The notes below the pieces were generated by a model, which saw only the letters and a program-made list of their open reading frames with translations, was not told where the DNA came from and did no database searches. A DNA stretch of 64,000 bases. It comes from Bacteroidota bacterium (GTDB lineage: Bacteria; Bacteroidota; Bacteroidia; Bacteroidales; UBA12077). Below, piece after piece: positions 8,904-12,845 of this stretch. Made by a program: the position numbers and the translations under genes. Position 1 is the stretch's first letter; every line of letters begins with the position of its first letter. The stretch is from NCBI GenBank assembly GCA_020444275.1, contig JAHLLG010000007.1, positions 1-64,000 of the forward strand. The letters run 5' to 3'.

Positions 8904-9398
8904 TTATTTCTGATTAATCTGTTTGATTAACTTTTTAGTTTCATAATATCCGGTATGCCTAAAAAACTCTTCCCCGTTTTTATCCAGTAAAATTTGAGTA
9001 GGAATGGCCGCAACTCCAAAATATTTCATTAAATCCTGATTCTGTCGGTAAGTTACATTATAAAATATCACATTAACCCTATCGGGATACTTTTCCTTTA
9101 TTTCATCCATAACACTTTCCATTCGTTTACATGCCGAACATCCTGTTGAACCAAATTCCAGAAAAGTTATTTCGTAAGGCAATCTGTTTTTTGAATAATT
9201 ATATAACGAATCAATTTCAAATTGCAATTCCCTTTCTACCACTGAACCTGTTTTTAGTTTTACAGCTTGTGAAGCAAAATCGTTAAGTCTGCTTTTTGAA
9301 AGAAACAAAATGATGAAAAATAACACCGATAAACTAACAAAAACAATCGGTGTTATACTTTTCAGTTTGATATGTTTATTCTGATTATTCATCTTCAT
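8904..9398 (-). CDS. Membrane-anchored thioredoxin-like protein
   Basis: A 164-residue protein with one N-terminal membrane segment (ITPIVFVSLSVLFFIILFL) and a thioredoxin fold carrying a CSAC redox pair in EFGSTGCSACKRMESVMDEI. VAAIPTQILLDKNG supplies the cis-Pro. The topology puts the thioredoxin domain outside the cytoplasm. An upstream TTG is in frame, but ATG at 9398 is preferred. It lies downstream of the arsP-like permease (126 bp gap) and before arsR1, probably the last gene of the arsP unit. A role in thiol-disulfide exchange with exported arsenic chemistry is inferred from position. Confidence 0.8.
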   Translation of the reverse strand: MKMNNQNKHIKLKSITPIVFVSLSVLFFIILFLSKSRLNDFASQAVKLKTGSVVERELQFEIDSLYNYSKNRLPYEITFLEFGSTGCSACKRMESVMDEIKEKYPDRVNVIFYNVTYRQNQDLMKYFGVAAIPTQILLDKNGEEFFRHTGYYETKKLIKQINQK

Positions 9399-9523
9399 AC
9401 ATGATTTCGCAACATTGCTACATGTTTGCAATTAACTAGAATTATGTCCAGTTTTAATCACATGATAAACCAGTTATTTACTGCTACTATCTGCTTTTAA
9501 TGACTACTTAATTTCTTCTAGTC

Positions 9524-10840
9524 TTATATTGCACCAAATATTAACCCCGACACAGTAGCCATAACAACAACTAATAAAACATAAACTAACGTTTTTTGTG
9601 TTCCCATAACTCCACGGATAACCAACATGTTAGGTAGTGACAACGAAGGACCGGCTAACAATAACGCAAGTGCTGGCCCCTTCCCCATTCCTGCTGCCAT
9701 TAATCCTTGCAAAATAGGTACTTCCGTTAAGGTTGCAAAGTACATAAAGGCGCCTACAATGGATGCAAAGAAATTGGAAAAAACGGAGTTTCCACCTACA
9801 AGATTAGATACCCATTCATTTGGAATAATTCCTGCTATAACAGTATTATCATGTGTTGAACCTAAGAGAAAACCAGCTATTAATACACCTATTGCCAATA
9901 GAGGCAAAATTTGTTTTGCAAAATCCCAAGTTGATAAAGTCCATTCTTTGTTTTCAGGCTCTTTTTTATCAAATAAAGTAATAATACTTAAACCAGCAAT
10001 TGCAACTAGCATTGGCACTAACGGTGAACTACTAATAAATCCTAAGATTCCGGTAACTAATGCTACAAGTGAAACATGCTTCCAATTTAATTTTAATATG
10101 TATATTAATGAAAACATTAAAAATAGTCCGAAGAATGATGTGATATACCACTTATTTGACCATATCCAATACCATGCTCCACTTGTAACTCCTTCGCCAG
10201 GTTTTCCCCAGTTCGCAAAAACAAGAATTAAAACCAATGTAAAAAAATGAAATGCAGTTTGCCACATTGGTCTCTTTTCTGGCATATTTGGAAAGTTTAT
10301 TTGCTCTTCACGCTTTGCTCTTTCCTCTTTTCTATAAATTAAAGACATTGCAGAACCGATAACCACAGCAAAAACAACTGCTCCAATAATACGTGCAACC
10401 CCCATTTCAAATCCAAGAATTCGCGCTGTTAATATAATGGCCAGTATATTAATTGCCGGACCTGAATATAAAAAAGCCACTGCGGGTCCTAAGCCGGCTC
10501 CTCTTTTATGAATACTTGAAAACAGTGGTAAAATAGTACAGCTACATACCGCCAATATTGTTCCGGAAACAGAGGCAACAGTATATGCAAGCCATTTTTT
10601 TGCATTGGCACCAAAATATTTCATTACTGCACCCTGGCTAACAAAAACGGCAATTACTCCTGCAATAAAAAATGCCGGTAAAAGACATAAAACGACATGC
10701 TCCTGTGCATACCATTTTGTTAAATCAAGCATCGCGTAGATAGCACTACTAAATCGCTCACTTTCAATTGGCATAAAATATGCAAATACAAATACTACAG
10801 ATATCCATAGCAATATTTTAATCTCTTTTTTAACTTCCAT
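9524..10840 (-). CDS. ArsP-like permease (COG0701/DUF318)
   Basis: A 438-residue inner-membrane protein with about ten hydrophobic segments. It has the COG0701 signature around CSCTILPLFSSIHKRGAG (Cys99, Cys101) followed by LGPAVAFLYSGPAINI, and a second related half containing GKGPALALLLAGPSLSLPN. ArsP, the studied member, exports trivalent organoarsenicals; other COG0701 permeases are uncharacterised, so the substrate is inferred from the arsenic context. A palindromic operator with the same half-sites as that of arsR2 lies 29 bp upstream of the ATG. It could equally move another metalloid. Confidence 0.85.
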   Translation of the reverse strand: MEVKKEIKILLWISVVFVFAYFMPIESERFSSAIYAMLDLTKWYAQEHVVLCLLPAFFIAGVIAVFVSQGAVMKYFGANAKKWLAYTVASVSGTILAVCSCTILPLFSSIHKRGAGLGPAVAFLYSGPAINILAIILTARILGFEMGVARIIGAVVFAVVIGSAMSLIYRKEERAKREEQINFPNMPEKRPMWQTAFHFFTLVLILVFANWGKPGEGVTSGAWYWIWSNKWYITSFFGLFLMFSLIYILKLNWKHVSLVALVTGILGFISSSPLVPMLVAIAGLSIITLFDKKEPENKEWTLSTWDFAKQILPLLAIGVLIAGFLLGSTHDNTVIAGIIPNEWVSNLVGGNSVFSNFFASIVGAFMYFATLTEVPILQGLMAAGMGKGPALALLLAGPSLSLPNMLVIRGVMGTQKTLVYVLLVVVMATVSGLIFGAI

Positions 10841-10904: not shown

Positions 10905-11129
10905 TTATTTACCGCAACAACAATTTCTTTCTAATTTATTATTTAACTTTAATAACTCAATAATATCTTCAGAGCAGCAAACGCCCTTTGGGTTTAATTC
11001 GGCACATGTATTACCTGTGAAGGCAGAAGTTGCAAGCTGAATATCTTTTAAGTTTTTTGCTCCTTGACTTACTGCACTTTCAATTTCACTTTCAGAAACA
11101 CCCTTACAAAAACAAATTATACGCTCCAT
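10905..11129 (-). CDS. Small BFD-like [2Fe-2S]-binding protein
   Basis: A 74-residue Cys-rich protein resembling bacterioferritin-associated ferredoxin domains: CFC at residues 6-8, the helical region SESEIESAVSQGAKNLKDIQ, then a C-terminal cysteine group (NTCAELNPKGVCCSEDI). The BFD domain normally binds a [2Fe-2S] cluster by CxC and CxxC; here the second pair is spread differently (Cys, 9 residues, CC), and the tail ends CCCGK. The gene overlaps the arsG stop codon, so it belongs to the arsEFG unit. An electron-carrier or As(III)-binding role is inferred only. Confidence 0.7.
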   Translation of the reverse strand: MERIICFCKGVSESEIESAVSQGAKNLKDIQLATSAFTGNTCAELNPKGVCCSEDIIELLKLNNKLERNCCCGK

Positions 11130-11836
11130 TACTTAACTATATAAATTATTATTACGTAGTATATTCCTATACCAATAAAAACAACTGACACGATTCTTCG
11201 AAACCAAATCTCAAAAATCTTTATGCTATTATATAATTTACCTACACCCGATATGGTATATGCAAGCAACCATGCAAAAATAATTACAGGAATTCCTGTT
11301 GCAATCGCAAATACCACCGGCAAATATAAGCCCGAAGCACTGCTAATGGTCATAGGTATTAACATTCCAAAATAGAGAACCCCACTGTAAGGACAAAATG
11401 CTAACGCAAAAACAATTCCTAAGAGTAAAACTTCCCAATAATTTCTGGTTCCATTTTCCTGAAATCTTTTTGTAAAACCATTGAATCCTGGAAATTTTAT
11501 TCTAAGAATATCCAACATCAATAATCCTATGACTATTAGTATCGGACCTAAAATCTTTTCACCATATTGTTGAAACCATCCTGAAAGTTTAAACTGATCA
11601 GCACCTATAAAGATGATTACAGCTAATAATGTGTACGATATTGCTCTTCCCAAGGTATAAACTAACCCGTTTCTAAAAACCTTTTTTTGATGCTCAACAT
11701 CTTTACTAATAAAACCAATGGCTGTAATATTGGTTGCAAGCGGACAGGGACTGATGGCAGTCATCAGTCCAAGCACAAATGCAGAGAGTATTGGTAACGA
11801 ACTGTTACTCATTAAATTTGACAAAAATTCCTCCAT
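11129..11836 (-). CDS. arsG: ArsG-family membrane protein (CcdA-like)
   Basis: A 235-residue integral membrane protein with about six segments in the CcdA/DsbD-transmembrane fold. The two paired cysteine motifs of that fold are visible: AISPCPLATN near residue 31 and AFCPYSGVLYFG near the middle. The order thioredoxin - ArsF-like - this gene matches the arsEFG operon, in which ArsG was described as an aromatic arsenical efflux permease. The intact CcdA-type cysteines also permit a role moving electrons across the membrane. Start and stop codons overlap both neighbours, so translation is coupled. Confidence 0.8.
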   Translation of the reverse strand: MEEFLSNLMSNSSLPILSAFVLGLMTAISPCPLATNITAIGFISKDVEHQKKVFRNGLVYTLGRAISYTLLAVIIFIGADQFKLSGWFQQYGEKILGPILIVIGLLMLDILRIKFPGFNGFTKRFQENGTRNYWEVLLLGIVFALAFCPYSGVLYFGMLIPMTISSASGLYLPVVFAIATGIPVIIFAWLLAYTISGVGKLYNSIKIFEIWFRRIVSVVFIGIGIYYVIIIYIVK

Positions 11837-12246
11837 TACAATATAGGATCAATTTTTTCTTTAATAATCTCTTTAAGTTTCTCAGGATTTGTTCTGGCAT
11901 TCATAAATCCTTCGTTTGTAATATTGATTTTATTTTCGCCACTTACTATGATTAATGTTTGTCCAGACACACCGATTTCTTCGGCCTTTTCTTTACCATC
12001 AGCTTCATCAAGATTGTATGATACAAAGAAAACATCATCCCCATAATACTCTTCTACAGCTTCTTTTGCTACATCTTCTACAGCATTGCATGTAGCACAA
12101 CGACGCGTGTAATGAAAATAAAAAACTTCAACATTATTTGCTTGGACAGTAGTTTCTTTCTTTTCATCTTTATTAGCCTGAGCTGTGCAAGCAAAGTTTA
12201 TGCTTATAGCTAATAATACAAGAGTTAAAAATTTAACACATTTCAT
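11836..12246 (-). CDS. arsF: ArsF-family lipoprotein with a thioredoxin-like CATC motif
   Basis: A 136-residue protein with a signal peptide and a probable lipobox (NFAC, Cys20), placing it outside the inner membrane. The rest is a thioredoxin-like fold with CATC at residues 50-53 (HYTRRCATCNAVEDVA). In arsEFG operons this family is called the nitrophenyl-arsenical nitroreductase subunit. No flavin site is evident here, so a redox-relay subunit is the safer reading. It overlaps arsG and follows arsE by 3 bp. Confidence 0.8.
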   Translation of the reverse strand: MKCVKFLTLVLLAISINFACTAQANKDEKKETTVQANNVEVFYFHYTRRCATCNAVEDVAKEAVEEYYGDDVFFVSYNLDEADGKEKAEEIGVSGQTLIIVSGENKINITNEGFMNARTNPEKLKEIIKEKIDPIL

Positions 12247-12249
12247 AAT

Positions 12250-12489
12250 TTATAGATTTTTAGTTATTAATTCTTTGATTTCAGCTGATGATGGAACTCT
12301 TCCGGCAATTACAACATTCCCGTTAATAACTAATCCGGGCGTATGCATAATTCCGTATTCCATAATTTTCATAATGTCTTCAACTTTTGCAATGTTTGCT
12401 TCTACATTCATCTCAGCAACAGCTTCTCGTGTTGCTTTTTCCAGTGATTTACACTTCGGACAACCTGTCCCTAATACTTTAATTTCCAT
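12250..12489 (-). CDS. arsE: ArsE-like small thioredoxin (MTH895/TM0996 family)
   Basis: A 79-residue glutaredoxin-like thioredoxin with CPKC at residues 10-13 (VLGTGCPKCKSLEKA) and cis-Pro in MHTPGLVING. There is no signal peptide, so it is cytoplasmic. It is the first structural gene after arsR2, and followed immediately by arsF and arsG, the order of the arsEFG operon that handles nitroaromatic arsenicals. A palindrome at 12512-12531 lies 22 bp upstream of the start. It likely passes reducing power to ArsG or another membrane partner (inference). Confidence 0.85.
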   Translation of the reverse strand: MEIKVLGTGCPKCKSLEKATREAVAEMNVEANIAKVEDIMKIMEYGIMHTPGLVINGNVVIAGRVPSSAEIKELITKNL

Positions 12490-12551: not shown

Positions 12552-12845
12552 TTATGATAAAAAGGTCTCAAAAAGACTCTTTGCTTCTTTCCAGTTTTCT
12601 TGATTAATGCAATACTTAATTTTCGGCGCTTCTATCTCACCCTGAATTAATCCAGCATCTTTTAATTCCTTTAAATGCTGAGATAAAGTTGATTTTGCAA
12701 TGGGTAAAATTTCTGATAAATCGCCACTGTAACAACAACTTTGTTTCGAAAGAATTTCAAGGACATACAATCTTATTGGATGTCCGATAGCCTTAGCATA
12801 TCGTGCAAGGCGTTTCTGTTTTTCGTTGATAACTTCCTTCTTCAT
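12552..12845 (-). CDS. arsR: ArsR/SmtB family repressor, copy 2
   Basis: A 97-residue winged-helix repressor with recognition region IAKSTLSQHLKELKDAGLI. Adjacent Cys37-Cys38 (QSCCYSGDL) and Cys78 (KYCIN) could form an As(III) site different from the CxxC of the first repressor. It precedes arsE by 62 bp and is preceded by a perfect palindrome that overlaps its own -7 element, which indicates autoregulation. The two ArsR copies are clearly different proteins, so they may sense different arsenic species. Confidence 0.92.
   Translation of the reverse strand: MKKEVINEKQKRLARYAKAIGHPIRLYVLEILSKQSCCYSGDLSEILPIAKSTLSQHLKELKDAGLIQGEIEAPKIKYCINQENWKEAKSLFETFLS

Follow-up and report, generated by a model that had tools for sequence, protein, structure and literature searches.

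The window, by which we mean the whole stretch of 64,000 nucleotides analysed, contains an arsenic resistance cluster in which the arsE, arsF and arsG genes are consecutive on the minus strand (12489 to 11129), between arsR (12845-12552) and the gene of an ArsP-type permease (10840-9524). The features that concern us here are the following, in the order in which they would be transcribed:

12552..12845, minus strand: ArsR1, an ArsR/SmtB-type repressor and the first gene of the operon (NF033788, 61.5 bits for a cut-off of 55)
12250..12489, minus strand: ArsE, 79 aa, a cytoplasmic thioredoxin fold of the MTH895/ArsE family (TIGR00412, 4e-35)
11836..12246, minus strand: ArsF, 136 aa, an extracytoplasmic thioredoxin fold with an N-terminal signal sequence (NF040494, 2e-27)
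11129..11836, minus strand: ArsG, 235 aa, a six-helix DsbD/CcdA homologue (NF040495, 6e-95; Pfam DsbD_2, 2e-22)
10905..11129, minus strand: a BFD-like [2Fe-2S] small protein, 74 aa, an optional accessory (Pfam Fer2_BFD, 3e-9)
9524..10840, minus strand: an ArsP-type permease in its long form, 438 aa, the fifth member of the module (Pfam ArsP_1, 6e-74)
8904..9431, minus strand: TrxP, a membrane-anchored extracytoplasmic thioredoxin fold with a CSAC motif (Pfam Thioredoxin, 5e-12)

Beyond ArsP, the cluster comprises the anchored thioredoxin, a second arsR, a rhodanese, arsC, a C_GCAxxG_C_C protein, arsM and acr3. The three central proteins exceed the NCBIfam cut-offs of their families, with 120 against 62 bits for ArsE (TIGR00412), 95 against 60 for ArsF (NF040494) and 317 against 200 for ArsG (NF040495). 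Only 3 bp separate arsE from arsF, and the boundaries of arsF with arsG and of arsG with the next gene are TAATG stop/start overlaps; the overlaps and the 3-bp spacing make it very likely that arsE, arsF and arsG share a single transcript. The gene whose start overlaps the arsG stop (10905-11129) encodes the BFD-like protein, which is related to the N-terminal domain of CopZ and is rare, as it occurs in 8-9 of 80-86 ArsG loci. At the head of the operon, ArsR1 has a candidate arsenical-sensing site, suggested by sequence conservation, in C37, C38 and C79, which are kept in 60/70, 69/70 and 69/70 of the regulators adjoining ArsG.

Each protein of the trio has two conserved cysteines. In ArsE they form the CPKC motif (residues 10-13; Cys codons 12460-12462 and 12451-12453) and in ArsF the CATC motif (residues 50-53; Cys codons 12097-12099 and 12088-12090), while in ArsG C31 is found in SPCP of TM1 (codon 11744-11746) and C148 in AFCPYS of TM4 (codon 11393-11395). 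The first-pass annotation had described CcdA-type cysteine pairs in ArsG; the homology to CcdA/DsbD stands, but since there is only one cysteine in AISPCP and one in AFCPYS, the protein has a single pair, split between TM1 and TM4. Across 86 loci the CxxC motif is present in 81/81 ArsE and in all 83 ArsF scored, and C31 and C148 in 86/86 ArsG. Since the patterns used in the first scan for these loci included the cysteines themselves, the counts were repeated on sequences found by HMM and not selected by motif: C31 and C148 are kept in 58/58 ArsG, and CxxC in 50/50 ArsF and 46/48 ArsE; of the two ArsE that lack it, one is a truncated frame and one has a shifted CAC motif. The only further cysteine column above 15% in the trio is C20 of ArsF (37/84).

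The loops of ArsG show a marked charge asymmetry: over 86 homologues the mean number of K+R is 3.6, 4.7 and 4.2 in the cytoplasmic loops versus 0.1, 1.0 and 0.05 in those outside. From this positive-inside pattern and from the helix pattern of the model, ArsG is predicted to have six helices with both the N- and the C-terminus outside. ArsE lacks a signal sequence in 79/81 homologues, which fits a cytoplasmic location and, with the TIGR00412 match, bears out its earlier description as a cytoplasmic thioredoxin with CPKC. The N-terminus of ArsF is hydrophobic in 82/84 homologues, and the remaining two are truncated. Of its earlier description as a lipidated, extracytoplasmic protein with CATC, the predicted export and the motif hold, but lipidation finds no general support: the window sequence reads INFAC, with Asn at -3, 37/84 homologues carry the aligned cysteine, and only 7/84 have a strict lipobox. 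Judged from these sequences, ArsF is better termed exported.

ArsG scores above the gathering thresholds of two Pfam families, DsbD_2 (80.5 versus 24.9 bits, 2e-22) and DsbD_TM (37.3 versus 27.1 bits, 2e-9), and hhalign aligns it with a CcdA-like profile over 203 columns (probability 99.2, E 2.6e-19). Like CcdA (5vkv) and the DsbD beta domain, to which it is thus homologous by profile and Pfam, ArsG is predicted to have six helices, with one cysteine in each of a broken TM1 and TM4; moreover, those proteins work with a thioredoxin donor on the cytoplasmic side and a thioredoxin-fold acceptor outside, the parts that ArsE and ArsF would play here. In the profile alignment C31 falls on the TM1 cysteine of CcdA; C148, however, lies two residues ahead of the TM4 cysteine, where ArsG has Y150 (FCPY, not xxPC), and because of this displacement we call ArsG CcdA-like and not CcdA. 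It also differs from CcdA and DsbD beta in being a separate family, with its own ArsE and ArsF partners and sited in ars operons. That the family is distinct follows from a sharp gap in NF040495 scores, with about 200-320 bits for ArsG and at most 58 for the other DsbD-like proteins of the phylum. A DsbD_2 protein labelled sulfite exporter TauE/SafE, encoded near copper resistance genes on an Alkalihalophilus plasmid (L172:4932-5666), places its cysteine in the FCP register, as ArsG does. ArsF and ArsG have weak matches to two selenoprotein families, TsoX and TsoB; these were dropped as an argument, TsoB being nearer to CcdA.

The predicted ArsG model is of moderate confidence (pLDDT 73.6, pTM 0.68); in it TM1 is broken at residue 29 and TM4 at 146-150, i.e., at both cysteines. 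The top Foldseek match in the PDB is CcdA 5vkv, with a probability of 1.00 and TM scores of 0.56/0.58 but an E of 0.029; the next is NqrE, an electron-transfer subunit. With VIA-align, CcdA reached a Z of 6.6 over 194 residues (rmsd 4.6), a value not above unrelated rows; NqrE/RnfA gave Z 7.4-7.9 over 120-138 residues. As transporters (LAT family, MntH) also score Z 5-7, the fold on its own is indecisive. The fold-search lists for ArsG contained no dedicated arsenical transporter, which is no proof in itself, and sequence searches of solved structures gave no useful match for ArsG; the nearest solved relative of ArsE is MtH895 (1ilo, 5e-17).

The distribution of the genes was determined in 99 Bacteroidales genomes, nearly all of different genera. 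ArsG is present in 62 of them and ArsF in 60, every one of which also has ArsG (ArsG and ArsF 60, ArsG only 2, ArsF only 0, neither 37). A high-scoring ArsP group is found in 58/62 genomes with ArsG, two partial copies counted, versus 3/37 of the others (58/4/3/34; Fisher p ~1e-18, uncorrected for phylogeny), and 57 ArsP copies lie at most 5 kb from ArsG, with a median gap of 200 bp. The linkage to Acr3 is looser (both 45, ArsG only 17, Acr3 only 6), and ArsP is present in 14 of the 17 ArsG genomes without Acr3. At the level of loci, some of them incomplete, ArsP stands within 3 kb of ArsG in 81/86 and arsC within 9 kb in 32/86.

When the neighbours in 80 ArsG loci were clustered without bias, ArsR, E, F, G and P alone proved near-universal; the ArsC/ArsM cluster was represented in 40 loci, Acr3 was present in 32, and neither a nitroreductase nor any other envelope enzyme was conserved near ArsG. 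The commonest gene order is R-E-F-G-P (49/80 loci), and in one such locus (L163) neither arsC nor acr3 is present in the stretch seen. The module is therefore ArsR-E-F-G-P. ArsF and ArsG show the best correlation of divergence (rho 0.53), whereas that between ArsG and ArsP is weak (0.12). Taken with the exchange of ArsP forms described below, this makes ArsF and ArsG close partners and ArsP an exchangeable partner of the same pathway. Among the frames examined there was no fusion of ArsG to ArsE or ArsF.

ArsP is an efflux permease for methylarsenite and trivalent roxarsone. It exports trivalent organoarsenicals, and neither arsenite nor pentavalent forms (PMC6205960). Like the known ArsP, the adjacent permease of the window belongs to Pfam ArsP_1 (249 versus 32.3 bits) and has the family-wide CSC motif, here the invariant C99-S-C101; its transport of arsenicals is putative. 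A difference from the known ArsP is that two divergent forms of about 347 and 439 aa, some 22% identical, alternate beside the same ArsEFG. A tight ArsG-ArsP interface is not supported, as ArsG divergence is the same whether the accompanying ArsP are of one type or of both. The CSC motif is present in all intact copies and sits, in the predicted ArsP model, in a helix break; the idea that it is a target peculiar to the ArsP linked to ArsEFG was rejected, since ArsP_1 proteins that do not adjoin ArsG carry it too. Its occurrence throughout the family and its place in the helix break speak more for a substrate site than for a target of the relay in particular. In two loci (L205:1165-3976, L206:4312-5590) ArsE is encoded beside or close to ArsP while ArsF and ArsG are missing, an arrangement which suggests that ArsE has a role of its own with ArsP.

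Judged from NCBIfam model names, ArsEFG of Shewanella putrefaciens 200 belong to the same three families. In 2019, Chen, Zhang and Rosen reportedly assigned nitroreduction to ArsE and ArsF and efflux to ArsG, and we know of no other experimental study of the trio. The Shewanella set has been read in the literature as nitroreduction plus efflux; here, in contrast, we take ArsG for an electron carrier and link the trio with ArsP. Earlier, Castillo and Saier (2010; PMC2963123) had described a CcdA, a thioredoxin and a redox-active disulfide protein 2 in ars operons, by description the same genes, and had raised electron transfer to the periplasm, which they judged less likely, ArsC being cytoplasmic. 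Their set differs from ours in comprising 8 instances linked to ArsC, with no ArsP link, conservation or topology analysis. The idea of a transmembrane relay is hence not new; what is new is the evidence from cysteines, topology and co-occurrence, and the replacement of ArsC by ArsP as the partner, which gives the relay idea a concrete genetic partner.

We propose, with a probability of roughly 0.68, that ArsE, ArsG and ArsF together constitute a transmembrane thiol relay, resembling that of CcdA/DsbD, which, alongside ArsP, serves organoarsenical resistance. Cytoplasmic reducing power, from thioredoxin or ArsE, would pass to the membrane pair C31/C148 of ArsG, and the reduced pair would in turn hand it on to CATC of the extracytoplasmic ArsF. 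Probably co-transcribed with ArsP, and co-inherited with it, the relay would supply thiol reductant at the outer membrane face, where ArsP would deliver trivalent organoarsenicals. The families, the invariance of the cysteines, the topology pattern, the homology and the co-occurrence of ArsF with ArsG, all read from sequence, together with the fold comparison, in itself indecisive, support the relay architecture that the first-pass annotation had put forward; its further claim, of reduction outside the membrane as the true function, is an inference. Electrons would then flow outwards, with ArsE as the direct donor of ArsG, and the final target may be arsenicals or arsenical-blocked thiols. Nitro-group chemistry finds no support in this analysis. 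As no partner is stronger than the ArsP-type permease, the context is at least as likely to be trivalent organoarsenicals as nitroaromatics. The conserved cysteines of the trio could instead bind As(III), and an operon of two exporters would account just as well for the synteny with ArsP.

In a rival reading ArsG would be a true efflux permease for trivalent (amino)aromatic arsenicals, with C31 and C148 as As(III) ligands along the path of transport and ArsE and ArsF as the reductases that prepare the substrate. NF040495 is indeed named 'aromatic aminobenezylarsenical efflux permease', PMC9144182 gives ArsG as an efflux transporter, citing Chen, Zhang and Rosen 2019, transporters do appear in the fold list, and ArsG adjoins another exporter, ArsP. 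However, ArsG falls within the DsbD families and Foldseek matches it best to an electron carrier; ArsF, predicted on the outer face, would not prepare a cytoplasmic substrate for export; and a transporter alone leaves unexplained why ArsF is restricted to genomes with ArsG (60/62, and 0 without). We thus regard a permease as rather unlikely, and lean, with a little less assurance than for the relay itself, towards the ArsG family being an electron carrier and ArsR-E-F-G-P a five-gene module of relay plus organoarsenical exporter in most of the Bacteroidales families sampled.

Some loci depart from the common arrangement. Three ArsG variants with a His-rich C-terminal tail have no ars genes nearby and keep both cysteines (L151:5991-6866, L152:5564-6280, L154:6269-7042); those of L151 and L152 adjoin ArsE, and in L154 ArsG is alone, with ArsF elsewhere in the genome. 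Possibly these variants are a metal-related thiol relay. In a 70% complete genome (G312) ArsF was not detected, and a thioredoxin with CAAC and a membrane anchor, like the one at 8904-9431 in the window, lies near ArsG. These variants, G312 and the DsbD_2 protein of the Alkalihalophilus plasmid lead us to favour a redox role independent of arsenic binding. TrxP-like genes were found in about 18-19 of 80 ArsG loci, with CxxC in 16/18 and an N-terminal hydrophobic anchor in 17/18, and TrxP is a possible second terminal thiol of the relay.

The His-tailed variants would also suit a broader function, in which ArsEFG is a general CcdA-like system of extracytoplasmic thiol homeostasis, recruited as arsenic oxidises or blocks periplasmic thiols and with no dedicated arsenical or ArsP-related target; the lack of any sign of a specific ArsG-ArsP interface, ArsG divergence being unaffected by ArsP types only ~22% identical, points the same way. 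Nevertheless, a full-length DsbD (681 aa) is already encoded separately in the same genome, and co-inheritance with ArsP is very strong (p ~1e-18); we hold this reading to be improbable. Least probable of all is that the trio is the redox supply of the cytoplasmic arsenate reductase ArsC, a proposal that goes back to 2010, the membrane protein being incidental: arsC is downstream in the window and in 7/8 such operons of the 2010 survey (PMC2963123), but it is far less often near ArsG than ArsP is (32/86 against 81/86 loci), R-E-F-G-P loci such as L163 show neither arsC nor acr3 in the stretch seen, and ArsF is predicted to be exported.

If the relay reading is true, one component of arsenic resistance is a system dedicated to bringing reducing power to the cell envelope, and the curated family name (aromatic arsenical efflux permease), which is spreading into public annotations, gives the wrong chemistry. 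Among the plasmids searched there was one clear ArsG, in an R-F-G-E-P-ArsC-Acr3 cluster flanked by mobilisation and integrase genes on a plasmid of Prevotella nigrescens from the human mouth (L171:7108-11614). Trivalent organoarsenicals have been proposed as antibiotics in anoxic communities (PMC11868830); given the presence of ArsG in 62/99 Bacteroidales genomes and on this oral plasmid, they, and not the man-made roxarsone, may be the everyday context of the module.

Distant ArsG-like genes lie on three contigs labelled phage or viral (H20, MT836950.1; H21, MT836000.1; L173), the first two from human faeces. A second ArsF copy with an in-frame TGA upstream of CxxC is found beside an intact copy in L129 (G328:C81:37511-37828); selenocysteine was considered as proof of a redox use of ArsF and rejected, as a TGA in this position does not encode an active-site Sec. 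ArsF paralogues also stand in tandem ahead of ArsG in L112, L115, L117, L123, L130 and L137 (two copies) and in L161 (three).
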